Origin: Candidatus Poseidoniaceae archaeon
Lineage (GTDB): Archaea; Thermoplasmatota; Poseidoniia; Poseidoniales; Poseidoniaceae
Direction: 5' to 3'
Length of the DNA: 52,294 bases
NCBI GenBank assembly: GCA_949372645.1
Contig: CASIAP010000003.1
Coordinates: 1-52,294, forward strand
A program made the position numbers and the translations under genes. A model generated the notes under the pieces. The model was not told the DNA's origin and searched no databases. It saw only the letters and a program-made list of their open reading frames with translations. Shown here one piece after another: positions 2,949 through 27,287 of this stretch (its first letter is position 1; every line of letters begins with the position of its first letter).

Positions 2949-2962
2949 AGCGAGTGAATAAA

Positions 2963-6209: not shown

Positions 6210-6247
6210 ACAGGCGTTTTTTATAGATAAATCAAGTCGGTGGTTTG

Positions 6248-8878: not shown

Positions 8879-8894
8879 CTTTACATATTGATGG

Positions 8895-8916
8895 CAATTA
8901 CAGAAAAATGTAATTG
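8895..8916. promoter_or_regulatory. Inverted repeat in a divergent promoter region (possible operator)
   Basis: Perfect 8-bp arms CAATTACA and TGTAATTG are separated by GAAAAA. The element sits between the dehydrogenase ATG and the TATATA box, where the minus-strand transcript should begin, so a bound repressor could block it. Seen in the sequence; the function is inferred. Confidence 0.4.
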
Positions 8917-8925
8917 GAGAAGGGA

Positions 8926-8931
8926 TATATA
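8926..8931 (-). promoter_or_regulatory. TATATA box, probably for the nucleotide-sugar dehydrogenase
   Basis: Symmetrical TATATA lying 48-53 nt before the chosen dehydrogenase ATG and about 70 nt before the ATG of the divergent membrane protein. The spacing suits the minus-strand gene better. Confidence 0.4.
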
Positions 8932-8997
8932 CGGACAAATTGTCGTCTGTTTGTGGGGGAAAAACCATCATTTGGGGGGCGTTTCACTCTCGAACTT

Positions 8998-10839
8998 ATG
9001 CCTGTATTGATGCTCATAGGGGCGGTGATGTCTTTAGGTTCTGGACTCGGATTACCAGTAATTCTATTATTGATAATTGTGCATATTGGGTTTTTCACGT
9101 GGATATGGAGACTGAAGAAACATTCAGTGAGTGTCTCAGATTTGAGGTTTTTATTCGTTCCTGGGCTAATATGGTTGATTGCTGTAATGTCCGGTGGTTA
9201 TCACGCCTTTCCCTCTTTTTATGATCAAGCAGAACATCTAATGATATCGAACAAAATATTGGAAAGGTGTGCTTCGGCGAAATGCGAATTCTTGTTTCGG
9301 CCCGAATTGATTCCAGGTATTGCTGCTGTTGAATTAGCTTGGACTGGGGACATATACAGAATATACTTTACCCCATTACTACTACTTTATTCTACTGGAT
9401 GGGCCATACAACATTTAGCGGAACAATATTGTTCACCAAAGTATGCCTTTACGGCTCCAATGATTTTTCTCCTTATGCCAATAGTAATTATTCATGGACG
9501 TACTATGCTGTTAGATGTTGGAGTCGCGGGTATGATTATTTCTGCTATGATATTCTATAAAAACCTAGAAGAAAAAGACTATTTCTATACGATTTTATTT
9601 GGAGTGATAATTGCCTGTATTGGGATGACGAAGTATGCTTACCTTTATATGGGCCCATGGATTATAATTCTCTTATATATTAGAAAGAATAACTCCTTAA
9701 TTAAACCATTTACAGTAGGGTGGGGTGGAGTAATTGGTATTTACCTACTAAAGAGCTTCATCCATAAAGACAGCATGTTTTCTCCATTGAATAATCAAAT
9801 ACAAGGGACAATAATCAGTTTGAAGTCAACAAAAGGAGAAATCGGAACCTACGACTTCATGACCTTTCTTTCAGAATATATTGCGCAGTGGTCGATTTCA
9901 TTATTATGCTGCGCCATTCTCGGCACCATCTTGTTGATTCGAACTAAACCCGATTTCATCCGAGATACGTGGTACTTAGTTTTTCCAGCGATAATACTCC
10001 ACGGAATGATTTTGGATTTTGGATGGATCCGATATTCGACTCCCTGGTTAGCATTAGCATGCGTAGGCATCCCCATATTCTTATCTTCTGAATTATTTTC
10101 ATTCCAGGTGAAAAATAGAAATATCAATCCATTATTTATAACTGGATTGATTGTGATCTTATTAAGTGTTCAACAAATAAGTTCTGTTTTAATTGAAGAA
10201 AAAGAAATCGTGAAAACAAGAACGACAGTGTGGTGGAGTATTGCTGATATTTATGTTGATGCGGGTCAAAATGTTGATGAAAATGCAATTTTTACAACAG
10301 GGACGAGTGATTGGAATCTAGAATTATATTCATCGATTACTTCTTATCAGTACAACAACAGTCAAGACCCTGTTTATAACTCTATAATGGATTTTGAAGC
10401 ATCTCACGTTTTTACTCAGTCGAGAGGATGGAGATATGATGTGGATGTCAATTGGAGTTATTTATATGGTTCACCTATTGAACCATTCGAGTATTACTGG
10501 TCTGGTTCTACTGAAGGATATTTATGGGGCGTGAATAATTCACGAATGGTAACTCATGACTGGTGGGTAAATCAAACAGTTATTCTAACTGGTGGCGGTG
10601 AAATGTTCGCTGATTTTATGTATTTGGAGCGAAATACTACATATGAGATCCCCGAAAATACAACCATTTCAAAAATTATTCGAATCGATAATAATTCCAA
10701 TATATCGAGTGCTTATCAATCACTAATTGGAAGTTGGTCTTCAGCAGAAATATTATGCCATTCACCAATCACATGTACTGATTTAGAACGAAATGATTAT
10801 CTTTATGACAGATGGTTGGTTTGGATTGTTAAAAATTAG
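8998..10839 (+). CDS. Multi-pass membrane glycosyltransferase-like protein (GT-C fold)
   Basis: About 613 residues. The first ~400 form about ten hydrophobic helices; the last ~200 are a hydrophilic domain likely exposed outside. After the second or third helix there is FYDQAEHL, an acidic loop in the place where GT-C enzymes (GT39/ArnT-like) hold the metal-binding Asp/Glu. These enzymes use lipid-linked sugars to modify glycans or proteins outside the membrane. An open frame extends to 8914 but only from a TTG, and those residues are not typical, so I chose the ATG at 8998. The gene is visibly AT-rich, starting the island core. Assignment to a family is tentative. Confidence 0.65.
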   Translation: MPVLMLIGAVMSLGSGLGLPVILLLIIVHIGFFTWIWRLKKHSVSVSDLRFLFVPGLIWLIAVMSGGYHAFPSFYDQAEHLMISNKILERCASAKCEFLFRPELIPGIAAVELAWTGDIYRIYFTPLLLLYSTGWAIQHLAEQYCSPKYAFTAPMIFLLMPIVIIHGRTMLLDVGVAGMIISAMIFYKNLEEKDYFYTILFGVIIACIGMTKYAYLYMGPWIIILLYIRKNNSLIKPFTVGWGGVIGIYLLKSFIHKDSMFSPLNNQIQGTIISLKSTKGEIGTYDFMTFLSEYIAQWSISLLCCAILGTILLIRTKPDFIRDTWYLVFPAIILHGMILDFGWIRYSTPWLALACVGIPIFLSSELFSFQVKNRNINPLFITGLIVILLSVQQISSVLIEEKEIVKTRTTVWWSIADIYVDAGQNVDENAIFTTGTSDWNLELYSSITSYQYNNSQDPVYNSIMDFEASHVFTQSRGWRYDVDVNWSYLYGSPIEPFEYYWSGSTEGYLWGVNNSRMVTHDWWVNQTVILTGGGEMFADFMYLERNTTYEIPENTTISKIIRIDNNSNISSAYQSLIGSWSSAEILCHSPITCTDLERNDYLYDRWLVWIVKN

Positions 10840-11002: not shown

Positions 11003-12821
11003 TTATTCCTCTTGATCACTTAACGTATATTTCAGGTAAGAAGAATAATTATTATCTACGGATTTTAAAAACGCTATTAAAACAAGTAATGCGACAAATG
11101 TTATCAACATTACTTGATAGATGAAAACACCTGCTGGTTTTGCTTTAGCTTGATAAAAATCCTCGTCAATTGGACTATCCCATTTCGTGGCATTAATTGG
11201 AAAGGCATCTGAGAGCATCCAAAACTCCATCGTTATCATCATCAATATCTGCATTGTTGCCAATTCCATCCGAATCGGTGTCTAAGGATTCTGAAGAGTT
11301 CAAGGGAAAGGCATCTGAGACATCCAAAACTCCATCGTTATCATCATCAATATCTGCATTGTTGCCAATTCCATCCGAATCGGTGTCTAAGGATTCTGAA
11401 GAGTTCAAGGGAAAGGCATCTGAGACATCCAAAACTCCATCGTTATCATCATCGATATCTGCATTGTTGCCAATTCCATCCGAATCGGTGTCTAAGGATT
11501 CTGAAGAGTTCAAGGGAAAGGCATCTGAGACATCCAAAACTCCATCGTTATCATCATCAGAATCAGATCGATCACCGATTCCATCTTTATCAGCATCTGC
11601 CCAAACAAAATTATTTTCCTGTTCAAAAAGATTGTCAAAATGGTAAACTTTACCAAAATCGCCTTGACTGCTTTTTCGTTCTAAGAATTGAGATTCTGAA
11701 ACTACAAACTCATTGTCATAAATGCACACGCCTATTGTGGGCGCACCCCTAACAGCAATAGCAACTTGGGAATCGAAAAATAAATTATTGTGAATATGAA
11801 CAAAGTCGCCTGCATAATCTTCACAATTTGTGGAATTCTCCTTTCCATAGCAATGTACGTCCACTAAATGATCGGTTGCACCGAGATGGAGTAAATTATA
11901 AGCAAATTCATACCCTGAAACATAATTTGAGCCTTCACCGTGGAAGTAACCAGTATGAGCAACGTCGTGACGGTTTAGACCAAATTCATTGTATCGCATA
12001 ACAGGATAAGCGTCGTTAATCACAATCCCATAACCGGTTCCTGAAATCCCTGACTGAAATTGCATGTTGTCATGAATAAAATTATGTTCAATACGGACTT
12101 TGGAATTCCAAATATCAGAAGTAAAGGTTTTCTCGATAGATATGCCTGCATGCCCAAAACCATAAAATTCATTGTTAAGAATCTCAATATTTGATTCTAA
12201 AACCGTCGGGCCATGATTTACTTCAATACCATATCGGCCTTCTCTCCAATCAAAATCTCCCGGATCACCTATTGGTGCCGGCCCTTCAAAAATTAGGCTC
12301 GAGATTGTAACATTATTCCCAATAACTGAAAACATGGGTTTTTCAGACAACATAATTCGATGGATTTGAAAAATTTGTGGTGTAAAAAGCTGTACCAATC
12401 TTCCCCGAAACTCCTCGCGATCCTAGTAAAGTGACGTTTTCTTCAATTACAATTCCATATTTATCTGATAAATCAATTCTGATATCATCCGGAAAGTATA
12501 ATTTGGAACCCGATTCTATTCTATTGTCTGTGGTTGAAAGTAAATCTAAAAAATGGGTCTCGTTTTCGATAATAATGAAATCGGAATTGTAAATTTGGGT
12601 CGATGCGATTTCGCTGATAAAATTATCACCACTAAACAAAAGAGAATCTAAATCTATGTCAGACTGATTTGCTAGTTCCAAACAGGCATCCGAGGTTAAT
12701 TCAAAACTCTCGCTTTGAACATTCCTTGGCGAAACTCAGATCAGCATTAGCAATCGATCCTAAAAATACCAATAATATTAGAATAAGAGTAAAAGAATTT
12801 GATAATGATTTTGTGTTCATA
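11003..12821 (-). pseudogene. Beta-helix surface protein with Asp-rich repeats and C-terminal membrane anchor (frame broken)
   Basis: Read across three frames, this is one gene. It starts with a signal peptide (MNTKSLSNSF, then LILILLVFLGSIANA). An N-terminal domain follows, then a right-handed parallel beta-helix (repeated N-x-F/I patterns such as EILNNEFYGFGHAGISI and IRIEHNFIHDN-like segments). After that come Asp-rich calcium repeats of 35 residues and a final membrane helix (VMLITFVALLVLIAFL) with a short cytosolic tail. Frames change near 12715, near 12385 and at 11215. The last is a 1-base insertion, shown by comparison with the other repeat copies. It is probably a surface-anchored protein that binds or cleaves glycans; this role is inferred from the fold only. 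Confidence 0.7.
11221..11560 (-). repeat. 105-bp tandem repeats encoding 35-residue Asp-rich calcium motifs
   Basis: The block AAAACTCCATCGTTATCATC begins at 11221, 11326, 11431 and 11536, giving an exact 105-bp period with three full units and a partial fourth. The units are almost identical in DNA; for example the third differs by ATCGATATCT instead of ATCAATATCT. Each encodes SDAFPLNSSE, TDSDGIGNNAD and DDDNDG, resembling thrombospondin type 3 repeats. Near-identity implies recent expansion or gene conversion. Confidence 0.9.
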
Positions 12822-12841: not shown

Positions 12842-14318
12842 TTAATTAATCATTTTTAACAGATGAGTATGTGAAATCACTTTAGTCGAGGATATAAAAT
12901 CATCAGAGTAATTATCTAATAAAAATTGTTCATGACCATACGATTTCAATACAACAATGTCATCTTCATCCATAGGCCGAATTCCAAAATTTCTCTGGGA
13001 GTTATGTATCGTATTCAGTATCGTTTCTGGCCAATCTAATAAAACAAAATTGTCAGGGTGATACTTGAATGCCCACGGTAAAAGAGAATGTGGTTCAAAA
13101 TCCTTTAAGTTTTGAATAGATTGAGATGTAGTTTTGGTCAAAGTTGAAACAGCAGACTTTGATGTAGACGTTAACATTTTTGCAGGCTGAGAAAATTTAA
13201 ATTTGGGAGATATCACGAAACCTTTGTCTTCAATAATTTTTAGGACTTCTTCGTAATAATCATCGAATGGACGCATTAATACAGCTTTCCTTAGAGCCTT
13301 GTACCCGAAACCCCATTCATCAGTACAGTTTCCGGCAATCAATCTTGCGTTACCAGATTTGGCAACAATATATGCATTCGTGTATTCTGAATGGCAACTT
13401 AAAGGAAGTGCTTCAACTCCAGACATCTTGAGCATTTTAATCCATAAATTCCCTGTTGAATTGTTATACCCATGTCCATCTCGTAGATATTGTGATTCGA
13501 GAATACTTCCTGTCAAACAGAACTCATCGCCTCGTATCATCGAGGGGACATATGGAATCATCCAATGTGCGGAAAGCCGGACACAGAATAGAGGGTTCTG
13601 ACGTTCGTGTGGATTACGTTTCCAGAGAATTTGTCCAGGATTTCTTGGATTCCGACTCTCACATTGCAAGGGCTGCTATTGGCAATGTAGAAAGAGTCAA
13701 CTGAGTGTTCGAGAAGACTGATCGCAGCACCTGAATCAAGCCCTCCACCGTAAGCAAGTGATGGCTTTAGTGCGGTTTTTTCGGTGGAAGGTTCTGCATA
13801 GTATCGTCAGATACAAATTCAAATCGTAAATTTGGCAGCATCCAATCATTCTGAAGTAATTCCAACATTCCGTCTGGACAACTCATATTGGTTCTAACTG
13901 TTGTTATTTCCTTAGAAGGTTCAAACCCCATGTGAATCATTTCTTTAAACGAACCTAAAGCATTCCAAGTAGGATGAAAAATGAATAATGCCGCCAAAAA
14001 CCCTCGCCCGTTTGAGATATCAAATCCATTCGTGAAGAAATTTGCATTATTCTCAATAAGACATTGTTGGTTCAATAATTCAACTACATATCTTCCTTCA
14101 CCGCGATAATGCTTTGCAGGCAAATCCCCATCAATGGTGAAAATTATATCTCCCTTTGAAGAAGTAGACTGCATCAAAGTTATCGCCATGTTTCTACCAC
14201 TCGGTTGAGAGACATGAACTTTACCTCGAGAGGTGACTGAGCCAATATGAATTGAAAATCCCATTGATGTCGCATCAAAGATGACTATCTCTATTGATAA
14301 ACTCCTTGCCGAGTCCAT
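12842..14318 (-). pseudogene. PP-loop (QueC-like) protein, divergent paralog (frame broken)
   Basis: The gene joins three frames. It starts MDSARSLSIEIVIFD at 14318 and has an N-terminal domain of ~175 residues. It then changes frame near 13795 to give the PP-loop SLAYGGGLDSGAA (compare SGGxDS). It changes again near 13575 and continues to the stop at 12842. The later part aligns with the two other PP-loop proteins in this locus: EFCLTGSIL with their ADYACAVHGILL region, and WGFGYKALRKAVL with WKCFRKNSL. Most cysteines of the zinc motif are missing here. It is therefore probably an ATP-pyrophosphatase-fold enzyme with a changed or lost metal site. Substrate unknown. Confidence 0.6.
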
Positions 14319-14367
14319 ACAACTATGCCCGGCGAGACGGTCAACCGCTGAGAGTTGGACAACGTCG

Positions 14368-15185
14368 GTGGGCAGAAGAGACTTGTCATGGAAAGCCCCT
14401 CTAGTCGAACCTATATCCACCATTCTCGAACACCGATTCTTGGTACGAAATCTAGTTCGAAGAGAAATTCGGGGGAGGTATCGAAATGCAATGCTCGGCT
14501 ATACTTGGACTGTTCTAGAACCGCTGTTATTGGCGAGTGTGTATTATTTTCTCTTTGTAATGCTGGCAGGAATCCCGATAAAATGTATCCAGTTTGGGTG
14601 TTCTTAGGCGTGATTATCTGGGGATGTTTTGGACGCTCCTTCTCCGGATCTGTGTCTTCTTTGTCACGAAATGCGCAAACCATTCATCTTGTCTATTTTC
14701 CAAGAATCATATTTCCTATTACCTCCATGATTGGAAACATGGTATTTCGATGATGAGTTGTTTGGTAGTAGTTCCGATCATGATTTTTTATGATTTACCA
14801 GTTACAATACATTTGCTCTTATACCGCTGAGTGTCTTCTTTGCGGGATTCCTTGGCATCGGATTGGGCATGATAGTTGCACCATCTGAATTGCATGCAGA
14901 GGGATGTTGAACACCTTTTCAGATTCATCGTTCGGGCAGGTTTTTTCCTATCACCGGTAATGTGGACCTATGAGATGGCGCTCGAACGTGGATGCTTTCG
15001 GAGAGATGGTTCTGTACAATCCAATGGTCGTGCCCCTCACCATGGCCACGACATGGTATCGCAGGCGAAAGTATCGGCATTCCCTGGCTGGAATTCTTGG
15101 CTCTCTTGGTTTTGGCATCGTAATGTGGATTCTTGGAAGTTATGTTTTCAATCGATATGAAGCAGGAGCAGTGAAACATCTATGA
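14368..15185 (+). pseudogene. ABC-2 type polysaccharide export permease, Wzm-like (multiple frame breaks)
   Basis: The N-terminus has the family signature RFLVRNLVRREIRGRYRN followed by LGYTWTVLEPLLLASVYYFLF. Later pieces are LSRNAQTIHLVYFPRIIFP and LSPVMWTYEMALE, with a final part LYNPMVVPLTMATTWYRR that ends at 15185. All match Wzm/TagG-type permeases, which export polysaccharide with an ATPase partner. Frames change near 14580, 14745, 14810, 14895 and 14985, yet each segment reads normally. An in-frame ATG at 14281 would overlap the divergent PP-loop gene; GTG 14368 fits the family better. The ATPase gene starts directly after the stop. Confidence 0.75.
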
Positions 15186-15905
15186 GTGAGTAATGCTGTT
15201 GAAATCGAAAATGTCACATTACATTTTCCAAAGCAACGCAATGCTTTGAGCATGATTATGAATTTCATTCGGAGAAAAAAGGAACGATTTACAGCCTTGC
15301 GAAATGTCAGTCTTACGTAAAAAAAGGGCGAAGTCTTGGAGATAATAGGGAAAAATGGTTCTGGGAAATCAACTCTACTTCGAATCATCTCGGGAATATA
15401 TCCTGCCGATGAAGGGTATTGTGAAGCTGCAGGGAGTGTCTCACTTCTTGCTGGACTTGGCACAGGTTTTTCAGGCCATCAAACCGGAAGAGAAAATGCA
15501 ATACTCTATGGGAGTATACTCGGTCATAGCGAAGCAGTAATGGTTGATAAACTCCCAGAGATTATTCAGTTCAGCGAACTGGAAGCCTTCATTGATGAAC
15601 CAGTACGCACGTATTCATCAGGAATGAAAGCAAGACTGGGGCTTGCAGTAGCGACTGCGATTCATCCAGATATCCTTCTTATCGATGAAGTATTAGGCGT
15701 GGGAGACCCTCAATTCAAAGAAAAAAGTAAGAAACGAATTTTAGATTTAGTCAAATCAACTGGAACAGTGGTACTGGTGTCGCATTCCTTCGGTTTGATG
15801 AAAGATATTTGTGATCGATTGGTATTTATGCACAAAGGAAAAATTGTCGATGTTGGCGACCCCGAAGAGATTATCAAGCTTTATTATGAAACTACTGGTT
15901 CGTGA
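15186..15905 (+). pseudogene. ABC exporter ATPase, Wzt-like (one frame break)
   Basis: GTG at 15186 directly follows the permease stop. The N-terminus (VEIENVTLHFPK) is in one frame and ends early near 15318 at a run of seven A. The rest continues in the next frame: Walker A IGKNGSGKSTLL, Q-loop region, signature YSSGMKARLG, Walker B ILLIDEVLGVGD and switch VSHSF. The joined length is ~240 residues, which is the Wzt/TagH ATPase domain alone, without the C-terminal glycan-binding domain of O9a-type Wzt. The next gene starts in the ATPase stop and begins with beta-sandwich-like domains. Confidence 0.85.
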
Positions 15906-18357
15906 ATAGAATGACTTCTGCATTAAGATTTAGACTCGATTCGGATACGTTTCGGAAGAATCAAGATGTCGATTTAGATTTCGAAAATGCGATTTGTAAA
16001 TGTACCTTGAACCAAACCACAAGTACTCCGGGTTTGAGATTAAGAAAGTCAATTGAACTTGCAAAAGGGGATTACGAGTTAATCGTAACAGCTAAAGCGT
16101 CGAAATCTGAAACTTTTTTTCTTTGGGTTTATGATTCCGAATCGAATACTCGCATCGGCGGAACATTACACGTCGGGGTTGAAAAGGAAAAACTCGCATT
16201 GGGTTTCTCTCTTCTCCAAAATACTGAACGTTGAAATTGGAGTTCTTGCTCACAATCATGCAATTGGAGATTACTGTGAAATAGAGTTTGTCGAAGTCCA
16301 ACATCAAAAAGTATTTGACCGCTCAGTCAAGCCTTTAACTTTAGAACCAAATCAATCTGCTGTATTATCAAACAACTCCGACTATTGGGAAGTTACAGCA
16401 AACCAAAACCGAAGTACCCCCGGATGCAGGTATACTGTTCCGGTTAAACCAGGTACATTACATGCAATCAATGTAGATTTGGAAGTTGTCAGTGTGACGG
16501 CTGCTGCTTTTTTATGGGCCTATTCACGAAGTGAGGACAGCGAATTACTACCAAGAGTACACGTATTTTCAGGTGGCCCAGATGCGATTCGAACCAAACG
16601 TACAGTCTACATTGAGATCCCCGAGAACGTCACTGAAATATTAATCGGGGTTTTGTTTTCTTCAGCGGGATTAAACGAGTCGGATAGTTTCAATTTGCAT
16701 TCACTAAATATTGAAGAAATTACAACCCTTTCGGATGTTGCAGATGCAGGGTATGTACTGAATCTTGATGATGAAGGAGAGAAGTTTTCTTACTGCCACC
16801 ACGTTCTTACAAGAGAAGGATTCAACCCGCAAAGAATGATTGCAGTTCGCGGAGCAGATGAACCACATAACTCAAATTATAATGAGTATTATAATTCACC
16901 ACATAATTCAGAAGATCTACGCCTTGGTAGAAAAGCGATTCAGAGCGTAGGTGCGTGGGGCTATTTACTTACAATGAAAAAAATTCTCCTCGATGCGGTG
17001 GAAAAGGGACATGAATCTATTGCTGTCTTTGATGATGACATTATATTGACTCATGATTTTACACTTAGATTCTCTCGATTTATTACTAATGTACCTGAAA
17101 ACTGGGAAGTTCTAATGCTCGGAGCCTCACAATGGAATTGGACTGGAGTGAAGTTAGACGATCGACTCGGGTGGTATCAGCCAAATCAGGTCACGAATGG
17201 TAGTTTTGCAATGATTTACCATTCTTCTATTTTTAAGAAATTAATTGATTCCATAGACGAAATGGATTCCCCTTTTGACTCAAAGCCACTGAAATCAATT
17301 ATTTGTAATGAGGTGAATCAAAGCATCTTATGTTGCTTGGCCAAATATTATTGTTGCTGACGTCGAAAAGGAAGGAATCAGGGACAGTCGTTCACAAAGA
17401 GCGTATGCAAGTCGGTTTCGATGGAGAATGCAAGACTTTCCGCATAACTACAAACGTTGGCGATCAAAGACAATTTTACTTCATGAACAAATACCTTCGC
17501 AATGGCCAATAAAAAATAAGCCTAATCTCGTAGTTGGTGTTACGACAATTAATCGATGGGATTATCTGGAACAATTTCTTGAATCTTGGTTAAGAACTCG
17601 AAATAACTCGTTTAATTGGACGATCATTGTTGCAGATGATGGTTCGACCGATGGAACTATTCAAAATTTTATGGATTTTGAAATCCCTAATACAAAAATC
17701 GTTTTATTACAAAATAGTGGTGGCGGAATTGCGATTCAAACTAACAGTATTTTCAACTACGTTATGCAGCAAAAAAACAAACCAGATTTAATATTCTCGG
17801 CGGATGATGATATTTTCTTCAAACAAAGAGGGTGGGATTCCGCTTACTTTGATGCAGTCACAAAAACAGGATACGACCATCTCGTTCATTTCAATCCAAA
17901 TTGGAAACCAGCATTACATGATGAAGACCTCATAAAAAATGATATTGAGTTGTCTTCTATGACTGATGGGATCTCATGCATGGGTTGCTTTTACACGGTG
18001 ACTCCAAAGTTATTAACTGAAATTGGAGGTTTTGATCAAAACGCTTTCCCAATCCGAGGCCATTCTCATATTGATTTTACGATGCGCGCATGTCGTAGCG
18101 GAAAGAATGATTTGAACAGTCTTTATGATATCAAAAAGGCAACTGAATTTCTCGGAATTCATCCAAAGGAAGGGTATGTTTCCACATTCAGAAGGTATTC
18201 CTATACTGAACAGATGATTTTAGCAAATGTTGATGATAAAGCAAGGAGATGGAATCTGGTTAAAGATCAGTCAAGAAAATTCGTTGAATTGCCCATTTAC
18301 AAAATGCTCCAACCGGAATCTTATCATTTTGATAATATAGTAAAGATCACAACTTGA
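15902..18357 (+). pseudogene. Fused GT25-like + GT2 glycosyltransferase with N-terminal beta domains (two frame breaks)
   Basis: Joining frames at ~16235 and ~17320 gives one protein of ~818 residues. The N-terminus holds two similar beta-rich domains (TSTPGLRLRKSIEL...FFLWVYDSE and RSTPGCRYTVPVKP...AFLWAYSRSE). Next is a GT25-like domain (AVFDDDI as metal motif, TNGSFAMIYHSS, then a segment like the family's C-terminal AYVAYPNIIVADVEK). After a short linker comes a GT2 domain: VGVTTINRWDYLEQFLESW, VADDGSTDGT, SADDDIFF as D-x-D. It starts four bases inside the Wzt stop, so it is coupled to the exporter. Stop codons fall only at the frame breaks. Confidence 0.7.
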
Positions 18358-18361
18358 ACTG

Positions 18362-19525
18362 ATGAAAAATCAGCAGAAAGAGGGCTCTCTAAAAGCGGCA
18401 GATACTTTCAAAAAAGCACATGAAATCCCTGAAGGTTCCACATATAACCATCTAGAGAATTGGTCGATGAAAAAGAATGAGTTAAGATTTCGGTATAAGG
18501 ACATGATTGTATGGTGGAAAATGCCGGTGGATTTCTCCTTCGAAGCAACCCATCCGGATTTATTCAAACTTGCTGAATTCGTATTAATCTCGCCCTATGA
18601 AACTGATATTCTGGAAGGATGGGTGCCTTCGAGAAAGCCTGGAATTCGACCCGGATTAGCCTTCTCTGCTGGATGTGATTCTACAGCAGCAATGGAACTT
18701 CTCCCTGAACAAACAGTTTTGATGTATCATAAGCGTGATGGTTTTGACTCGAAACTCAATCACTCAAATGCTCTCCGTTTCATTGATCATCTGGAAAAAG
18801 AATGTCTTCGCCCAGTCTGCATCATTTCTTCTAACCATGAAATTTTGAGAACAATAAATGGCAAACAAGTTGGTTTTGTAACAGATTATGCATGTGCAGT
18901 ACATGGTATTCTCTTGGCGGATTATTTTAATTTGGATAGTATTGCGACAGGAATGCCACTAGAAAATTCATATCTTTGGCATGGACAAAAATTTCGTGAA
19001 TTCTCAGAAACATGGTTTTGGAAAAAACATGCACCGTTGTTTGAAAGTGTTGGGTTGCCGATTTTACAGCCCGTCATGGGATGCTCTGAGGTAATCAACC
19101 AAAAAATTGTTGAAAGTTCCGGTTTTGGAACTTATGCTCAGTCTTGTTTAAGATCCAATGCAGGAAAAACATGTGGGGAATGTTGGAAATGTTTCCGTAA
19201 AAATTCGCTTAAAGGACGGGAAATTACAATTACTAAGGAAATTGATACATTTCTCAAACAACCCAAACTTAAGATGGCAGCAAGCACAATTTATTCAATA
19301 CAAAAGATGAAGGATAAAAGTCGGTTTTTCCAAGAAATTATGGCTTCTTACCCCCACCTTCAATTACTTGTAGAAGAAGATGTACAATTTCTGGAAAACT
19401 ATTATGAGCCAGCGTTACAATTAATTCCTTTGAAATATCGCGAATATGTGAAGGCGCGTTTGAAGAGTTTTGAATTGGAATTTGACAATTCAGGCGTCCT
19501 AGAAAACTTTCAATTGTACGATTGA
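18362..19525 (+). CDS. QueC-like PP-loop protein with zinc-site cysteines
   Basis: An intact 387-residue protein. After ~95 residues containing the motif WWKMPVDFSFEATHPD it has a PP-loop, SAGCDSTAA, at 102-110, like the SGGxDS ATP-pyrophosphatase signature. At 262-277 it has four cysteines spaced C-x8-C-x2-C-x2-C (SCLRSNAGKTCGECWKC), which is the spacing of the zinc site of QueC, the 7-cyano-7-deazaguanine synthase. The ~100-residue C-terminus is helical. It may activate a carboxylate with ATP to make an amide, nitrile or thio product. It begins five bases after the fused glycosyltransferase stop and is the best preserved of three paralogs here. It may belong to an uncharacterised DUF family; its substrate is unknown. 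Confidence 0.65.
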   Translation: MKNQQKEGSLKAADTFKKAHEIPEGSTYNHLENWSMKKNELRFRYKDMIVWWKMPVDFSFEATHPDLFKLAEFVLISPYETDILEGWVPSRKPGIRPGLAFSAGCDSTAAMELLPEQTVLMYHKRDGFDSKLNHSNALRFIDHLEKECLRPVCIISSNHEILRTINGKQVGFVTDYACAVHGILLADYFNLDSIATGMPLENSYLWHGQKFREFSETWFWKKHAPLFESVGLPILQPVMGCSEVINQKIVESSGFGTYAQSCLRSNAGKTCGECWKCFRKNSLKGREITITKEIDTFLKQPKLKMAASTIYSIQKMKDKSRFFQEIMASYPHLQLLVEEDVQFLENYYEPALQLIPLKYREYVKARLKSFELEFDNSGVLENFQLYD

Positions 19526-20697
19526 TCCGATTTTTCGAGCCATTTCAGTACATAATTTGTTGGTTTCAAAACGTTCAAGTCCCCAGATGATACTGCCCCG
19601 AATTGTATTTGAGGTATTGCGTTTAGATATTGAAGGCCTTGAAGAATTTCAAAACTTGAATTTCTTCGAACAACCACAAGGTTTCCTTTCAATTCGAGAT
19701 CTCGTATCATCTCATTGATAATTGGCGAAAGCTGTGCCCCAGTTCTTAATAATAAACAAGGGACGTTTAACACAGCTAAAGAGGGTAAAAGGGGTGACTT
19801 ATCATCAACAACCAAAATTACATTTCCTTCCAATTGCATTCCAACAACTTCTTTCATTCTTACAACTAAGTCAATTCCTTTGGGCAAGGAATATTCTCTT
19901 TGAACTGCCGTAACTAGATGATTTTCTCTAAACTCCATGATGGAATCAAGTAAAAGTGTATTTTTCGGATCTACATCGATAAGGACGATTTGTTCGCTTT
20001 CCGAACGACGAAGAATACGATGTATTGATTGTGACGAATGGGTGATGCTGGAAAACTCAGGTAGAGAGATTAAATTAATTTTTGGTAACTTTTCTGTAGA
20101 CATTGATTTCTGAGTTGTGGAATTGGTCAGGAACCATGTTATCGGGATGGATGCATCTATGGGCCCGAGTGCATCGACGACGCCTCTGTAAAGGTAATCT
20201 CCAAAGAAAATTACATGTTTGGGGTGAGAGATGCTTATTGCTGATGAAAGAGACCTTTCGATCATGATATTCCATTCTTTTCTCGACTTATTTTTTTCTC
20301 GGACAGATGGCAACCTGTACCACTCTATTTGTTCAAGGTTCATTGGGGGTTTCGATGAATTATTAAACAGGGTGACTTCACCTAAATTAGATTCTGAAAT
20401 GATTTCACCTAAAGATTGGGCTTGCAACGAGAAATTGTCACCAATACGGTCGATTCCAATGATAAGAATACCAGACTGAGTATTTTCCTCAAATATGAAT
20501 GGTGCGGTTTTCTTGATAAAAAGTAGACTCACAATACGAAATGGGAGAAACAAAATTAAAAAAGGATTTTTAATACTGCGAATTATTTCCATTCCAAGAT
20601 TAAAGGTAAAAGAACTACGTAGGCGATGAATTTCACGTGCTTCTTTCGTGGCATGAACAATTCGTGATGTGAATTTAGTATCTTCATCTTTAGACAT
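19510..20697 (-). CDS. Glycosyltransferase-like protein with membrane-associating N-terminus
   Basis: An intact 395-residue protein. Residues ~20-60 carry AREIHRLRSSFTFNLG then IKNPFLILFLPFRI, a motif shared with the neighbour at 21214-22515 and probably an amphipathic or re-entrant membrane segment. The rest has alternating strands and helices in two Rossmann-like halves (GILIIGIDRIGDN, VIFFGDYL, ILVVDDKSPLLPSLAVLNVP), suggesting a GT-B fold or a heptosyltransferase-like enzyme. No canonical donor motif is obvious, so the call is cautious. It is last in the minus-strand run from 23.7 kb, starts two bases after the methyltransferase-like gene, and overlaps the convergent PP-loop gene by 16 nt. 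Confidence 0.5.
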   Translation of the reverse strand: MSKDEDTKFTSRIVHATKEAREIHRLRSSFTFNLGMEIIRSIKNPFLILFLPFRIVSLLFIKKTAPFIFEENTQSGILIIGIDRIGDNFSLQAQSLGEIISESNLGEVTLFNNSSKPPMNLEQIEWYRLPSVREKNKSRKEWNIMIERSLSSAISISHPKHVIFFGDYLYRGVVDALGPIDASIPITWFLTNSTTQKSMSTEKLPKINLISLPEFSSITHSSQSIHRILRRSESEQIVLIDVDPKNTLLLDSIMEFRENHLVTAVQREYSLPKGIDLVVRMKEVVGMQLEGNVILVVDDKSPLLPSLAVLNVPCLLLRTGAQLSPIINEMIRDLELKGNLVVVRRNSSFEILQGLQYLNAIPQIQFGAVSSGDLNVLKPTNYVLKWLEKSDQSYN

Positions 20698-20699
20698 TT

Positions 20700-21224
20700 T
20701 TACACCTTCTCCTTTCTTAAGAAAACACCAAAGCTTCTTCTATTTGAGCTCATTTCTTCATCTGATTTAGAGTAATGAGTACACTGTAGATTGCATTTTT
20801 CTGATAAATGTTGAGAGAAGGCATACTCTTTCTCCCTGTGTAAGTCATCAATAATCACTGGAAATTCCCAAGAAAAAGAATCAACATGGTCTAATAATCC
20901 ACTTCGACCAATAGAGCCATTTGGGCCATCAATAATCATAAGGTCAATTTTAGAAGGGAGGTTTTCTTTGATTCTCTCGATGTCATACCAGCCAATTTCG
21001 CCCTGATATTTATCACTCAGTTTAATCGGAGCATAGATGTATGTACTTTTGGAGAATTCAAGCCATTCAGGATTATGTTCAATTGAGTAGAGATCATAAT
21101 TTACTGACAATCGTTTGGATCCCTCTCCGCTACCAAATTCCAATATTGTGGAACCAAACGGAATGTTTCTTTCGATCCATTCAAAAATTGGTAATGGAAG
21201 CATCCACGAGGTTTCAATTTGCAT
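20700..21224 (-). CDS. Small SAM-methyltransferase-fold protein
   Basis: 174 residues. Motif I is clear (TILEFGSGEGSKRLS), followed by an acidic motif-II-like strand (LYSIEHNPEWLEFSK), and KIDLMIIDGPNG acts as the strand-4 motif. The length covers little more than the catalytic core. Family knowledge: such proteins methylate or cap glycan ends, or act on small molecules. The ATG at 21224 overlaps the end of the glycosyltransferase gene by 11 nt, so they are coupled, which hints at a glycan substrate. The substrate is inferred, not shown. Confidence 0.65.
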   Translation of the reverse strand: MQIETSWMLPLPIFEWIERNIPFGSTILEFGSGEGSKRLSVNYDLYSIEHNPEWLEFSKSTYIYAPIKLSDKYQGEIGWYDIERIKENLPSKIDLMIIDGPNGSIGRSGLLDHVDSFSWEFPVIIDDLHREKEYAFSQHLSEKCNLQCTHYSKSDEEMSSNRRSFGVFLRKEKV

Positions 21225-22515
21225 TACCCATCACCTCAAGTAGATTTTCGGACAAAGTATTTGCCCCGTTTAGTGATTCATTTACCTCATTAATACCTAC
21301 CAAACTCGATAACGACTTGCATGCTTGTTTGATAGTTTTGTTATTTCTTATTTCAAGAACGATTCCCCAGCCTTCTTCTTCAGCAACCTTACAACGAGCG
21401 AGTTGATCGTCCATTCCAGTATTCAAATTTGGATAAAACAATGCGGGCAGGCCAAAGGTGCGTGTTTCATGGAACGAGTTGTAGCCACCTGCCTGAACTG
21501 TTGCATCAAATCCACGGAAATACATTGAATTGGGATAGTCACGTAAGATTTGAACACGCGGTAAATCAACGTCGATTCTCTCACCAATAAGTGACTCTCC
21601 CAGAATGACATAAACGGCTGGATTTTCGAGTAAGCATTCGAGCGTAAGACGTATCTCGCTTTCAATGTCATTGATTTCACCAGCACCGAGCTGGACATAG
21701 ACGACAATGGCATCTTGAGGCAAGCCTAATCGTGAACGGGCTTTTTCTTTTGAGAGGAGTTCTTCAGAATCCAGCATTACTATTGGTGGGCAGGTCATTA
21801 CTTCGACGTTATGTTCCACGTTTTCAACGACTGTAGCGACGCTGTCTTCGGGATGGATGACTGCATCAAAATGTTCGATACTGTCAACAGGGATCGATGA
21901 GCCTTTTCGAAAAGTTCCTCGTCGCATCCACATTTTTTGAATGGAATTGCGACCCTGAATTGCTCGAAGCATTCCCCGATATGGAAACGCTCCGTCGAAC
22001 AGAAACATTGAGGGCCGATGGGTTTCAAAACAAACACTCAACTCTTCTTCAAGAAGAGCGTTCCATTCCTCAGAACTCATACCTTTGAAATATTTAGGCC
22101 CCGAAATATGGTGTGCTGGAATCCCATACGGTTTGAGAAGATGTAAGGTTGGCATTGTTGTAAAAAAGATTATTTCTAATTCCGGATCTAACTTCTTCAT
22201 GCGTTTGGCAACTGCAAGCAGACGAGTAAAATGACCGAAACCAACTCCGTTTGTAGGAAACATGACCACGCAATTACCCTTTGAAGACAATCTTCCAGAA
22301 GTATTGGTTGAAAATGCTGCAGGCTGGGATTTCCATCCTAAGAGTTCAAAGCCAATCATCAGCATCATCCAAGGTAAAGTGAGAATCAGAAAAGGCGCTC
22401 TCCATGGCTTACGTATAGCATCTGTAAGATGTGAACCTAGGCGTAGTGATGGAGATATTCGAAGACGATGTACTTCTCGTTGGAGGCGTGTGAGGCGTGT
22501 TTCATCTTCATCCAT
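21214..22515 (-). CDS. MurG/GT28-like glycosyltransferase
   Basis: About 433 residues. The N-terminus shares the REVHRLRISPSLRLG...PFLILTLPW motif with the gene at 19510. A GT-B enzyme follows: TNGVGFGHFTRLLAVAKRM (donor/acceptor loop with the GxGHxxR pattern), FLFDGAFPYRG, a second half with VVYVQLGAGEIND, and near the end the GT28-like FDATVQAGGYNSFHE followed by GLPALFYP. It likely transfers a sugar from an NDP-sugar at the inner membrane face. The ATG at 22515 follows a strong GGAGGTG ribosome site. It sits third in a minus-strand run headed by the PP-loop gene. Confidence 0.8.
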   Translation of the reverse strand: MDEDETRLTRLQREVHRLRISPSLRLGSHLTDAIRKPWRAPFLILTLPWMMLMIGFELLGWKSQPAAFSTNTSGRLSSKGNCVVMFPTNGVGFGHFTRLLAVAKRMKKLDPELEIIFFTTMPTLHLLKPYGIPAHHISGPKYFKGMSSEEWNALLEEELSVCFETHRPSMFLFDGAFPYRGMLRAIQGRNSIQKMWMRRGTFRKGSSIPVDSIEHFDAVIHPEDSVATVVENVEHNVEVMTCPPIVMLDSEELLSKEKARSRLGLPQDAIVVYVQLGAGEINDIESEIRLTLECLLENPAVYVILGESLIGERIDVDLPRVQILRDYPNSMYFRGFDATVQAGGYNSFHETRTFGLPALFYPNLNTGMDDQLARCKVAEEEGWGIVLEIRNNKTIKQACKSLSSLVGINEVNESLNGANTLSENLLEVMGNAN

Positions 22516-22621
22516 ATGTATCACCTCCAATGTCTATGATGGTGTGTCATTGGCTCTACATTATTGTCATGTTGGCGAATGTTTTGAAATACACCCAGTT
22601 TAGAACTCTATCGAAAGGGAA

Positions 22622-23732
22622 TCAATCTTCAAAATAATGAACAGATTCGACTGGGTATGGTTGTTTCATTGGACTGAGGTAGTTGGAGATATTGTTCCAA
22701 ATCTCCTCTTGCCATCGTTCTTGTAAAATGTTCTTTGCAGGAGGATAATAACAGGTCCACCAAGAAAGGTCTTGTTCCAAATATTCAGAAAGTTCTGGAA
22801 CTTTTGATTCAAGTTGAAGATGTTGAAGAGCCCATAAGGCATGAGTGGCAGTAGGAAGTGGGCGGCGTTTGAGAAAAATTTGAATTTCTTTGCCGTTAAT
22901 ATCAAACGGTCGGCCGAGAGGGCCATTTTTGAGAAAACATTTCCAGCAGACTCCACAGCCATTTGTACCGTCACCGCGAAGGCAAGAATTGAGATATGGG
23001 AGTAACTTTTCTTTTTGACATATTTCCATCGCACCGGCTTCAGAAATCCCCGCTATGGGGAGCAGATAGGTCTAAACCTGCTTTCAAAAACCTTTCTTTC
23101 CAGTATTGAAAATAGTGTGTTTCTTGGAATTGCCGGAATTTTCTACCCTTTACTAACCAAGTATTATCTAATGGCATTCCAAACGCTATTGCACCTATAT
23201 CGAAATGATCGGCGAGGAGAATTAAATGGGTTGCACATGCAAAATCTGAAGAAAAACCTATCTGCTTGAAATGATACGTGCGGATGAGTTCATGATTTGA
23301 AGAAATATCGACGATGGTCTTTGCTTTTTCATTCGCCATAAATGCCAGTAGACGGTCAGCATTACGGTGGTCAAGAATACTCTCAAAATTACGGCGATGG
23401 TACCCTAAAATCGTATGTTCTGGCATTACTAATGCTGCGGCAGTTGAATCTGTACCTGCGGAAAAGGCAAGAGAAGGAATGGTTCCCAATTGCCGCGTAC
23501 CTTCGAGAGAACTCCGAGTAGATGTTTCCCAAGGGTAAAGCAAAATTTCAGCGGTGAGCCTCAAAAGGTCTGAGTGGGTTGCTGCAAGCACAAAATCGTC
23601 AGGCATATCCCAATATGTCCAACCGTGTGGATGAACCATCCAAAGGCGATCTCCTTCCTGTAGAAAATTCAGCGTCATGTCATGAGAATTCCAGTCTTGA
23701 CCTCGAATTATTTGGCGTTGGTTGAGACTCAT
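22622..23732 (-). pseudogene. QueC-like PP-loop protein, second paralog (one frame break)
   Basis: Homologous along its length to the protein at 18362-19525. Shared features include WDMPDDFVLAATHSD, PP-loop SLAFSAGTDSTAA, FACATHLILLADHFD and GMPLDNTWLVKGRKFR. The cysteine site SCLRGDGTNGCGVCWKC has the same C-x8-C-x2-C-x2-C spacing. The frame breaks near 23055, where GCTCCCC would read correctly with one C fewer; the two parts then join as SAP-IAGISEAGAMEIC. ATG 23732 gives an N-terminus like its paralog, and the frame is open to 23786. It heads a minus-strand run with two glycosyltransferase-like genes and a methyltransferase-fold protein. Confidence 0.6.
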
Positions 23733-24110
23733 GGAGCTCTCGAATTTTAGGATGATGAGTTTTTTCATTCCCAGGTATTTGCTCATTCAATGAATAAACG
23801 GCCAGTTCAGAGAGTTTTGGAAACGCATTACCCCAAAGTGAATTGAGGCGTATGACTTCATGAAAATTTCTCTTCATTCCAATATGAACGAATCATTACA
23901 CTTCGAGCAAGTTGTTGCTCTTTGGGAGAATCGATGATTTTGGATGCGTTGGAACTCGAGCATTTTCCCAATACCCTTTGTTGTAGGCTCGACGCATCAA
24001 AGTTCGCCGAATCATCGCTTCGAGTATCAGGAGTGCGGATTCTATCAAGATGTGCCAGGATCAGCAGGATTTTGAGCACGATATACCGAAGGATATGTAA
24101 TCGCCATAGC
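23733..24110 (-). pseudogene. Remnant or frame-broken small gene of unknown function
   Basis: No single frame is open, but coding-like pieces occur in successive frames. One is IRRTLMRRAYNKGYWENARV, then SVMIRSYWNEE, then FHEVIRLNSLWGNAFPKL and SELAVYSLNEQIPGN before the PP-loop gene start. Together they could form a protein of ~110 residues. I do not recognise it. It may be a decayed or truncated gene between divergent partners, or an intact gene with consensus indels. Confidence 0.3.
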
Positions 24111-24126
24111 AGTCCAATTGGTGAGT

Positions 24127-25087
24127 ATGGGGAATCTATTGATTACCGGCGGCGCTGGTTTTATCGGCAGTACACTTGCTAAAATTGCCCTTGAACGCGG
24201 TTGGAATGTTCGGATTCTTGACAACCTTTCTACAGGATTAGAAAGTACTGCTCGAGAATTGGAAAATATGGGAGTCAACGTATTCCTTGGCGATATTCGT
24301 GACGATTCCTTACTCGATTCAGCCATGGAAGGGTGCGATGCTGTTGCCCATTTAGCAGCTCAAGTATCCGTTCCACTTTCTGTATCAAACCCTGAAGAAA
24401 CAATGAGTATCAATGTTGATGGTACATCGAAAGTGTATCGCAGCATGTCTCAAACACGGCATTAACCGAATGGTCATGGCTTCAAGTGCTGCTGTCTATG
24501 GTGAAGCGGAAAGTCTTCCTCTCAAAGAAGAAGATGCTGGCCAAGTTCTCTCGCCCTATGCTGAATCAAAATGGACAAATGAATCACAAATTTTGGAGGC
24601 CAGAAAAAACGGCCTTCATGCAACTGCATTACGGTTTTTCAATGTCTATGGGGTAGGACAAAGACCCGATGGAGCATATGCTGCAGTCATCCCCAAATTT
24701 GCAGACATGATGGCGCAGGGGATTGCCCCCCGGCTCAATGGCGATGGATTACATACCCGTGACTTTGTCCATGTGCATGATGTATGTTCAGCCATATGTT
24801 CACTCATTGAAGGAGAATGGAAAGCAGAACAATTCCATGTTTACAACGTCGCAACTCAAACCAAAATTACTCTGCTTGATTTAGTTTCTACAATTAACCA
24901 AGCGCTTGGAAGCGCAATGGAGGGTTTTGAACCAATCACAGCGACCCATGGACCTGAGCGCGTTGGGGATATTCAGCACTCAATGGCAGATATTACTCGA
25001 ATTCAAACAATATTGAATTGGCAACCCATCGTATCATTTGAAGATGGAATTGAAGGGTTAGTACGTGAGCGACTGAGTTTGAGATGA
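24127..25087 (+). pseudogene. NAD-dependent sugar epimerase/dehydratase, GalE-like SDR (one frame break)
   Basis: An extended SDR. The NAD site LLITGGAGFIGS is at the N-terminus, then ILDNLSTG, GDIRD and VAHLAAQVSV. After a frame break near 24440 the catalytic region appears: SSAAVYGE and Y-x3-K as YAESK. LRFFNVYGVGQRP and the C-terminal sugar-binding domain (DFVHVHDV) follow. The break is explained by one extra T in GTGTATC: without it the protein reads KVIAACLKHGINR. It probably makes an NDP-sugar for this locus, such as UDP-Gal or UDP-GalNAc. The stop overlaps the next ATG. ATG 24127 is preferred to the TTG and GTG just upstream. Confidence 0.85.
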
Positions 25088-26211
25088 GGGTTATGCAGAT
25101 TTATTGGTTCACTGGGCGTTCACTCAAGGACCTTTGCTCAACAACCCAAACATCTCTGGCTTCGGGATTAATCAAACGAGGGTATGAACTCACTTTTGTG
25201 AACCCCGATGAAAGTGGGAGTCACGCTGATTGGCCTTGGAAGCATCAATCCATTCAGTTCGAAGCACTCCCAGGTTGCGCTCACGGACACTTGGAATAAA
25301 AATGAGAAAATGGTTCGAACAGCACGACTCAAAAACTGATAGTGTTGCATTGGTTGATTGGAGAATTGCTAACGCTTTAGTACCCCTCTTCCGACTCCGT
25401 AATATCCCTTGGATCTTGATTGACCGCAGCCCACCTGCAGACAAAGGAATTCTTTCACTTCTTCAATGGCCTTCATGGAAGCGTAGTTGGAAACTCGTTC
25501 GTGCCAACTCGTCAGCGCGTGGCTGTGTTGTTTCGCAAAAGCATCAGGAATTTGTACAGAAAAAGACTGGTGTGAAAACATCTTCAATCACTGTGTTACC
25601 TGCAGGAGTAGATCTTGAACTCTTTCAGCCAAGCACAGCGCTTTTCCAAACTTACCATGGTCTATCATGGTCGGCTCGACCAACATAGAGGGGTTCTCGC
25701 ATTGCCCATGCTGTTGCAAAAAGTGAAGAAATCCGGGCTTGATGCTCGATTGATCATGATTGGTGATGGAGATTCAATGCCAGGTTTACAGATTATGGCT
25801 GCAGAAAACGATAGTTTCGATATTCATTCCACTCTTGAACAAGATGCATTGGCTGAAATTATTTCGCGTTGTCATATCGGTTTATTACCAATGCCTGAGA
25901 ACAAGATGTGGGCAATTGCCAGCCCTCTCAAGCGAAGTGAATATGCTGCATCGGGACTTCTTATTTATGGAATTGACCATGCAGGTCATCGCTTTTCAAC
26001 GAGTGATTCGTTGGATTGGATGAAACTTGTCAAACAATATGACTTTCATGACGATGGAGTTCAATGGTTGAATAATCTCGATGAACAACAAATTGAGCAA
26101 CTCGCAATTCAAGCCCGAACGTATGCTGAAGAAAACCTCTCCTGGGAACATACGCTTGATTCGCTTGAACAAACTATTCTGACGCTTCGTAAATTAAGAC
26201 ATCTCGAATAG
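25084..26211 (+). pseudogene. GT4-like glycosyltransferase (two frame breaks)
   Basis: It begins in the epimerase stop (ATGA). Part one (MRVMQIYWFTGRSLKD to EALPG) breaks near 25280. Part two (LGIKMRKWFEQHDSK, VALVDWRIANALVP, VLPAGVDLELFQP) breaks near 25640. Part three contains MVYHGRLDQHRGVLALP, MIGDGD, the E-x7-E region ASPLKRSEYAASGLLI and a helical C-terminus. Joined, it is a ~375-residue GT-B enzyme of family 4, with VYHGRLDQHRG as the phosphate-contact strand. Cotranscription with an SDR epimerase suggests that it uses the sugar the epimerase makes. Confidence 0.75.
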
Positions 26212-27182
26212 AATCTCACCCCACTGCTGAGATATGTTCTCAATTGAATAGCGATTCAGATTGAGAGATAAGAAGAGATGGCTCGACGGGAGTTTCGAGC
26301 ATTTCCATCACCTTGGATACCCAAACTTCTATATTTTCAAATGGTGCACGGACAACCGAACTTGGAGTTTGGTGGATTCGGTCGGAAACTAAGACTTGGA
26401 GACCACAAGTCATAGCCTCTAGCACAACTAAAGGCTGGCCCTCAAAGGCAGACGGGACCAAAAGTAGAGTGGTAGATTGGAGAGAGATTGAGTTTCTCAG
26501 AATCGCTCACCCAGCCTCGAGCTGAAATCCACGGATGTGGGCTTGAAGAAATACCTGTCATCGTTACTTTGAGTTGTGGATGTACCTCTCGTACTTTTTC
26601 ACAAACTTGAATCGCAAAAGCATGACCTTTGACTGGATCATCTCTTCCAAGAAGAAGGAGATGATGACTTTCTCTCTCTTTTTGGCTTGGTTTTATTTCC
26701 TCGGCGACAGGGTTATTGATCACTTTAACCGGCCCAATGTGCGACTCCAAGACCTCTTGCCATCCAATACCAAGAACAACAGTTTGGCTTTGATGCTCTT
26801 TCAAAAAAGACTTCATTGCGTGACTACGTTTGGAATCTGGAATTCCAAGCCATGTATCAAATTGCCCAGAATGGATATGGACAATGTTTGGAACACCGGC
26901 TTTGTGTGCCATTTGAGCAAACCGTCGTTTCCGCCACCATGACCAATCCGCCGCTGTATGAAGATGAACAACATCAGGGCGTTGAGCTGGGTCTTTCAGC
27001 ATCTGGATGAGGATTTGCCGAGCACGCCTGTATGCCCGCCATTTCGCCCAAGGCGAACCTGCGACATGAGACGAGAGAAGATCCGCTTCCCAGCCTTCAG
27101 GTGGATGCTCTGCAAGAATACGCATGACGTTGGCCATACCGCCTGGCGTCTCACACGGACCGATGTGGAGTACCTTTGGCAT
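26194..27182 (-). pseudogene. GT4 glycosyltransferase (two frame breaks)
   Basis: It starts MPKVLHIGPCETPGG at 27182, with the donor-site loop GGMANVMRIL. DVVHLHTAADWSWW and IVHIHSGQFDTWLG follow, then LLLLGRDDPVKGH and the E-x7-E motif PSAFEGQPLVVLEAMTCG. The frame breaks near 26465, between LNLS and LQSTTLLLV. A second break near 26255 restores a typical GT4 end, RYSIENISQQWGEIL, giving a stop at 26194 that overlaps the convergent gene by 18 nt. The open frame extends upstream to 27386, but that part is not GT-like. It is divergent from the GT2 gene across 105 bp. Confidence 0.75.
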
Positions 27183-27287
27183 GTTACACGCTCTGAGCCA
27201 TTGGATGAAGAAGTTCCGCACAGAAAGTGACCTGATGAAGTCGGTTTTGAGGGGAGATATCAAGGGGGGAACGACGGTGAAACGGTC

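Follow-up and report, generated by a model that had tools for sequence, protein, structure and literature searches.

DUF6395, a PP-loop protein family in putative surface-glycan loci of Marine Group II archaea

The DNA analysed here (the window; 52,294 nucleotides, positions 1 to 52,294 of contig CASIAP010000003.1, assembly GCA_949372645.1) comes from a Candidatus Poseidoniaceae archaeon. The assembly holds 1.8 Mb in 17 contigs, and its relatives belong to the Poseidoniales (Marine Group II), abundant archaea that were described in 2019 as uncultured (PMC6864105). The window carries a putative surface-glycan locus with three genes, A (12842-14423, - strand), B (18362-19525, + strand) and C (22622-24020, - strand), whose PP-loops read GGGLDSGAA, SAGCDSTAA and SAGTDSTAA, respectively; all three strings lie where an initial annotation of this sequence, which took the proteins for relatives of QueC, had placed them. 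The family to which they lead is DUF6395 (Pfam PF19932, curated cut-off 25 bits): gene B matches it with an E-value of 1.6e-24 (87.3 bits), as does gene C, through its C-terminal piece (22622-23029, - strand), with an E-value of 5.9e-12 (46.4 bits), values at which the match is not by chance.

Genes B and C both have an intact C-x8-C-x2-C-x2-C motif (CLRSNAGKTCGECWKC in B, CLRGDGTNGCGVCWKC in C), whose spacing is that described for the zinc site of QueC (PMC13329287). Gene A has no match in Pfam. When its orthologue at L113:562-1593 is compared with the DUF6395 profile by hhalign, however, 196 columns align with a probability of 97.5 and an E-value of 5.5e-12, and alignment with other members shows that it keeps one of the four zinc-type cysteines and has lost three, in line with the earlier description of a motif complete in two genes and mostly lost in the third. 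Judged by its sequence, gene A is a DUF6395 paralogue that has diverged and lost its metal site. The PP-loops also vary, with S-A-G in B and C and G-G-G in A against the usual SGG; across the 72 aligned DUF6395 proteins the loop is SGGxDS in 53 and S[AG]GxDS in 70, and the cysteine motif has exactly eight residues in its first spacer in 54 and seven to nine in all 72.

Frameshifts in this assembly break gene A, gene C and the gene that contains B. A related locus (L037, genome G184) is 96.2% identical to the window across 19 kb. There, B's gene is a single open frame of 1206 residues, with matches to glycosyltransferase family 2 (GT2) and to a GT25-like domain N-terminal to the DUF6395 domain; gene C is one open frame of 463 residues; and the frame of gene A is open as far as the point where the contig switches to unrelated sequence. 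By this comparison, a glycosyltransferase fusion of about 1200 residues ends in the gene B domain and is split by frameshifts in the window. The initial annotation thus had B in the right place, but had only the last domain of its protein, and had ended gene C too early, as this continues upstream to about 24020. L037 ends past gene A in GC-rich repeats of foreign appearance. Its genome, G184, holds the glycan locus with its conserved flank in two versions (L036 and L037) and is classed in another genus, though one version is 96% identical to the window; it is possibly a mixed bin.

Between the window and L037, the ratio of nonsynonymous to synonymous substitution rates (dN/dS) is 0.074 for gene A, 0.119 for the B fusion and 0.238 for gene C. 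In gene A, 21 synonymous and 6 nonsynonymous changes fall in 339 codons; in the B domain, 32 codons differ synonymously and 11 nonsynonymously out of 387. Strong purifying selection on gene A between the window's genome and G184 argues that it is in use, and its interpretation as a pseudogene is rejected on these values; the three indels that separate it from L037 look like assembly errors, as in the neighboring genes. Strong matches to gene A are confined to these same two genomes, in a search of 243 genomes of the class and 170 of the family; 7 and 6 further genomes, respectively, give E-values of 1e-4 to 1e-3 through ordinary DUF6395 proteins. Another diverged copy, in L116, has the loop GGGIDS and a shortened cysteine motif, and is about 20% identical to gene A.

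The predicted structure of gene B (AlphaFold2, from the alignment of 72 sequences) has a mean predicted local distance difference test score (pLDDT) of 92 and a predicted TM-score (pTM) of 0.89. In a Foldseek search with it against the PDB, the leading matches include TilS, LarE, GMP synthase, NcsA and MnmA, with E-values of about 1e-3 to 2e-2 and low TM-scores of 0.2-0.4. TtuA is also matched; neither QueC nor NASAT, the glycan-modifying PP-loop enzyme discussed below, is among the 50 matches listed. The model thus predicts for B the PP-loop ATP-pyrophosphatase (HUP) fold that the initial annotation had anticipated, and we read the protein as a PP-loop core to which the family adds extensions of its own at both termini. 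The model of gene A is poor (pLDDT 46) and was left unused. Invariant in DUF6395 are G104, D106, S107, A109, G171, G197, G231, C262, C271, C274, K276, C277 and F278, and nearly invariant positions include H64, E160, R163, D175, E243, R264 and K280; the SxGxDS core and the C4-K-F-x-K motif, with C4 for the four cysteines, are invariant or nearly so, and no cysteine outside the four-cysteine site is invariant. A sequence search of the PDB gave weak, chance-level matches only, and one of phage records no match.

The resemblance to QueC, from which the proteins had first been named, lies in the SGGxDS loop and the C-x8-C-x2-C-x2-C motif; DUF6395 differs in its N- and C-terminal extensions, in its glycan loci and in having none of the QueC catalytic motifs. 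These motifs, YxQxHxxE, VPxRN and YPDC, reported as catalytic in QueC (PMC13329287), occur in 9/9, 8/9 and 9/9 of the Poseidoniales QueC proteins aligned (18 full-length loci, of which 10 were recovered and 9 aligned), and in 0/72 of DUF6395. The QueC profile PF06508 matches 26 of the 72 at an E-value of 0.1 or better, the best at 9.6e-4 and below cut-off, and has no Pfam match to gene B; hhalign aligns the two families at 92.5% probability, but across only 58 columns around the PP-loop. The window's genome has a QueC of its own on another contig (L153, G000:C4:111338-112018), and the locus shows no link to tRNA modification, in accord with the earlier remark that no archaeosine or queuosine genes were seen. 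With the catalytic motifs absent from all 72 proteins and a genuine QueC encoded on that other contig, membership of the QueC family is rejected, and DUF6395 is, by sequence comparison, a remote relative of QueC only. The true QueC proteins of Poseidoniales (L153 and eight others) keep SGGMDS, YGQKH, VPNRN and YPDC; the four zinc cysteines are found in 0/9, with a FANTNTSYNPD-like sequence in their place.

Around the three genes, the locus is composed of glycan-synthesis and export functions. Between A and B lie a frameshifted ATP-binding cassette (ABC) type 2 exporter permease (14281-15160, + strand; open reading frames 14281-14607, 14355-14753 and 14876-15160), whose orthologue L037:17094-17984 matches ABC2_membrane at E 2.5e-10, and an ABC exporter ATPase (15336-15905, + strand; PF00005, E 1.2e-15), followed by the frameshifted N-terminal part of the B protein (15902-18357, + strand) with its GT25-like (PF01755, 4.6e-5, just under cut-off) and GT2 (PF00535, 2.5e-10) matches. 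Between B and C, all on the - strand, are a GT28-like glycosyltransferase (21214-22530), a locus-conserved protein of 174 residues (20700-21224; cluster k12, found in 10 loci, no Pfam match) and a distant GT28-like relative (19510-20697; 29% identity, E 1.9e-9 to 21217-22530, no Pfam match). Pfam does not match the GT28-like protein at E 0.01; it is recognized through its 38% identity to L082:8786-9886, which matches Glyco_tran_28_C at 9.9e-11. Gene C itself is in pieces (22622-23029, 23040-23786 and an upstream part), as is gene A (12842-13669, about 13564-13797, and 13767-14423). Beyond C follow a frameshifted nicotinamide adenine dinucleotide (NAD)-dependent sugar epimerase or dehydratase (24118-25087, + strand; PF01370, 5.5e-20 and 6.4e-28 in two pieces), a frameshifted group 1 glycosyltransferase (25230-26211, + strand; PF13692, 4.2e-6), a GT4-like glycosyltransferase (26442-27386, - strand; PF13579, 3.4e-6, below cut-off) and a GT2 glycosyltransferase (27288-28511, + strand; PF00535, 2.1e-16). 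On the other side of A are a nucleotide-sugar dehydrogenase, the putative uronic acid maker (7478-8971, - strand; PF03721, 1.2e-40; TIGR03026, 2.1e-111), a DegT/DnrJ-type sugar aminotransferase (6245-7477, + strand; PF01041, 2.7e-59), a polysaccharide flippase-like protein (3972-5546, - strand; PF01943, 8.7e-9) and a further glycosyltransferase (2954-4048, + strand; PF13439, 5.1e-13). A protein of 641 residues with no Pfam match (8914-10839, + strand) adjoins the dehydrogenase; a probably secreted protein (11193-12398, - strand) has a beta-helix-like region and thrombospondin type 3 repeats (PF02412, 7.7e-14); and at the edge of the glycan locus an archaeal type IV pilin N-terminus is encoded (28627-29205, - strand; PF07790, 1.8e-10).

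This setting recurs. Near DUF6395, genes for a nucleotide-sugar dehydrogenase, an ABC exporter, an epimerase and a GT28-like glycosyltransferase are met repeatedly. Among the loci that span 18 kb or more, 22 in number, motif searches find GT28 in 20, the ABC ATPase in 18, the dehydrogenase in 16 (the motif missed at least two, in L080 and L081, that Pfam finds) and the epimerase in 12. The most constant companion is GT28, which lies within 5 kb of 60 of 79 DUF6395 places. Among the 243 genomes of the class, 51 have DUF6395 and 53 a GT28-like gene, with 43 having both, 8 DUF6395 only, 10 GT28 only and 182 neither (Fisher p 7e-30, a guide only, since the genomes are related and partly incomplete). 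For the nucleotide-sugar dehydrogenase the corresponding counts are 36, 15, 46 and 125 when the 21 genomes of a third family are dropped, and 36, 15, 66 and 126 (p 3.5e-6) when they are kept; as a specific partner of DUF6395 it is thus weaker than GT28. DUF6395 is found in 0/14 control genomes. Its link to glycans is good, and it is consistently tied to glycan synthesis except in one clade of actinomycetes.

The survey of gene neighborhoods covered 74 DUF6395 loci, to which a plasmid of Priestia megaterium was added from a separate search. Together with Halobacillus litoralis, Oceanirhabdus seepicola, Alkalithermobacter paradoxus and Glycomyces albidus, this makes five named bacterial records; DUF6395, GT28 and the dehydrogenase occur together in all but Glycomyces (4/5 records), and the window's GT28-like protein is 38% identical to that of Alkalithermobacter and 37% to that of Priestia. 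The surface-glycan setting assigned to the window from its sequence thus holds there, in related archaea and in several bacteria. No GT28 or dehydrogenase motif is found on the 6.5-kb Glycomyces contig, nor on the 11-kb contig of an Actinomycetota bin from a hot spring (L093). Contigs labelled Opitutia (L077), Deltaproteobacteria (L081) and Gammaproteobacteria (L114, L126) may be misbinned; they are left uncounted because they group with archaeal sequences in the tree. In the class of Glycomyces, DUF6395 is present in 9/216 genomes, and the eight besides Glycomyces itself (L189-L196) form a clade of their own with Nonomuraea. Their locus is a different one, with enoyl-CoA hydratase-type and Ser/Thr-kinase-type genes in 8/8, an M55 D-aminopeptidase by motif in 7/8, and also amine oxidase and tRNA-edit-domain genes. 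In the other bacterial groups searched, DUF6395 is seldom present: in 1/44 genomes of the Halobacillus family and, above cut-off, in 1/216 of the Alkalithermobacter class. Beside DUF6395 on the Priestia plasmid, two more PP-loop proteins with C-x8-C-x2-C-x2-C (L034:7485-8687 and 8890-10095) are 71% identical to each other and have no Pfam match over cut-off; spore coat genes lie on the same plasmid.

A tree of 83 DUF6395 domains, built by a quick method and with support from the Shimodaira-Hasegawa-like approximate likelihood ratio test (SH-aLRT) only, separates three types. Type 1 (37 rows) takes in all loci of the named bacteria and nearly always has the SGG loop; type 2 (29 rows; SGG in 12, SAG in 17) includes gene C, placed there through its orthologue L113:10084-11472; type 3 (16 rows) includes gene B, and 10 of the 12 type-3 proteins scanned have a GT2 domain in the same chain. 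Types 1 and 3 are never found together (0/70 contigs). Type 2 is present in 9 of 20 long loci, 8 of which also have one copy of type 1 or type 3, but 17 of the 29 type-2 rows are alone on their contigs, many of them short, so that type 2 is not established as an obligate partner. The catalytic pair plus adaptor hinted at in the initial annotation would fit the purifying selection on gene A and the pairing of type 2 with one other copy in these 8 loci; the type-2 copies found alone do not point to it. Adjoining an intact type-3 copy is a type-3-like protein (L050:3288-5213, - strand) with the cysteine motif and no recognizable PP-loop.

PP-loop enzymes convert ATP to AMP and pyrophosphate and thereby activate an oxygen, which a nitrogen or sulfur nucleophile then attacks. 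The three proteins, whose relatives accompany one kind of glycosyltransferase from ocean archaea to Bacillus-like bacteria, probably modify a surface sugar. With the family, the predicted fold, the intact core residues of the ATP loop, the zinc-type cysteines (B and C), the fusion of B to glycosyltransferase domains and the association with GT28 in evidence, the preferred reading, quite possible if tentative, is that DUF6395 uses ATP to attach a nitrogen group to a sugar carboxylate, an N-acetyl target being less likely. The enzyme would adenylate a sugar oxygen, with release of pyrophosphate and use of ATP to AMP, and a nitrogen nucleophile, most simply ammonia, would displace the AMP. The likeliest target would be a hexuronic acid, at its C6 carboxylate; the neighboring nucleotide-sugar dehydrogenase would make this acid, GT28 would transfer it, and the product would be an amide. 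This is the simplest candidate product, since a uronic acid maker and a dedicated glycosyltransferase are adjacent and no cysteine other than the four is invariant. The fused B and C would act on different residues or at different steps, and A, its metal site lost, may be an enzyme that has diverged or else the subunit of a partner.

Several observations weigh against such a role. The Foldseek TM-scores are low (0.1-0.4), and pyruvate kinases, which are unrelated, fill many rows of the same list at probabilities of 0.1-0.2; the S-A-G loop of B and C could weaken ATP binding; and the genomes compared are kin, so that the Fisher values overstate their independence. Glycan loci commonly have the dehydrogenase, and it lies within 15 kb of only 26/79 DUF6395 places, many contigs being short; an AsnB-like amidotransferase, which could make the uronamide instead, is found by motif in some marine archaeal loci (4/74). 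Finally, the actinomycete clade has neither a GT28 nor a dehydrogenase motif (0/8) in its own conserved locus; this tells against a purely glycan family and goes part of the way to what the initial annotation had named as refuting evidence.

The initial annotation knew of no precedent for such a role, and precedents exist. NASAT of Legionella is described as a PP-loop enzyme with a zinc tetracysteine that ligates ammonia to the N-acetyl group of a surface-glycan sugar (PMC10607449), and the AsnB-type WbpS as making uronamide in Porphyromonas surface glycans (PMC7468200). By analogy, DUF6395 is best described as a new family and variant, with NASAT/WbpG as the earlier zinc-bearing PP-loop sugar amidotransferase. 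WbpS shares with the proposal for DUF6395 the amide on a uronic acid of a surface glycan; it has a glutaminase domain, whereas DUF6395 has none and sometimes adjoins an AsnB-like gene. In a literature search, no paper naming DUF6395 was found, nor one linking uronamide with a PP-loop or treating Marine Group II exopolysaccharide, cell surface and glycosyltransferase together; the Pfam entry lists no function.

The main rival is a reaction like that of NASAT itself, in which ligation of ammonia would turn an amino sugar's N-acetyl group into an acetamidino group. The NASAT family (WbpG, WbuX; TIGR03573) shares with DUF6395 the SGGxDS loop, a zinc tetracysteine and the surface-glycan pathway described for it (PMC10607449), and the locus has a sugar aminotransferase gene (6245-7477). 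The cysteines, however, differ in pattern and order. Of 12 NASAT loci looked through, 5 were recovered; hhalign finds kinship confined to the PP-loop region at 27% probability, a CxxC pair ahead of the PP-loop, as in NASAT, is found in 0/72 DUF6395 proteins, and TIGR03573 has no match in the window's genome. Membership of the NASAT family is rejected on these results, and we consider the NASAT-like reaction unlikely.

About equally unlikely is that A, B and C are non-catalytic, serving as ATP- or sugar-binding regulatory or scaffold modules of glycosyltransferases. The S-A-G and G-G-G loops, the lost metal site of A and the type-3-like copy without a PP-loop motif would fit such a role; the SGGxDS loop of 53/72 relatives, the cysteine motif of all 72, the loop Asp and Ser retained even in A, and the strong purifying selection do not.

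A nucleobase or an amino acid might instead be joined to a protein or glycan, in the way that 7-deazaguanine is attached to a protein N-terminus by Cap9 and QatC, but this appears improbable. QatC, like DUF6395, is a QueC-type core with N- and C-terminal extensions (PMC13279940), and 26/72 DUF6395 proteins match QueC weakly; yet the QueC catalytic motifs are absent, the zinc motif given for QatC, C(x)19CGxCxxRR (PMC13329287), is unlike that of DUF6395, and no QatB-like partner was recognized, though no search was aimed at one. PADLOC profiles match neither B nor five of six further proteins that were scanned, and QatC/Cap9 membership is rejected, there being no match to B, L082, L068, A or the C orthologue. 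Least probable of all is that the proteins insert sulfur or another heteroatom to yield a thio-sugar or thiocarboxylate, in the manner of LarE, TtuA or MnmA: LarE, NcsA, TtuA and MnmA are among the Foldseek matches of B, but the cysteine spacing is that of the QueC zinc site (PMC13329287), the part of the window's open reading frames that was scanned has no sulfur-delivery gene, and, as no further cysteine is invariant, an amide suits the family better than thio chemistry.

Beyond amide formation on a sugar carboxylate, a broader scheme can be drawn, speculative and rather doubtful in its entirety: DUF6395 would be a separate branch of PP-loop ligases, its paralogue sets combining type 2 with a free type 1 or a glycosyltransferase-fused type 3, and in a few genomes a metal-less adaptor, which together with GT28 would give ocean archaea and spore-forming bacteria a common exported glycan of uronic acid that bears a nitrogen-containing group not yet described. 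If nitrogen-group attachment by DUF6395 is true, the family would be an ATP-dependent tailoring family present in 51/243 genomes of the class, whose fusion to glycosyltransferases would provide a handle on the surface composition of Marine Group II. As the same enzyme and the same glycosyltransferase occur in cultivable Bacillota (Halobacillus, Alkalithermobacter and Priestia), the function of DUF6395 would be directly testable there.

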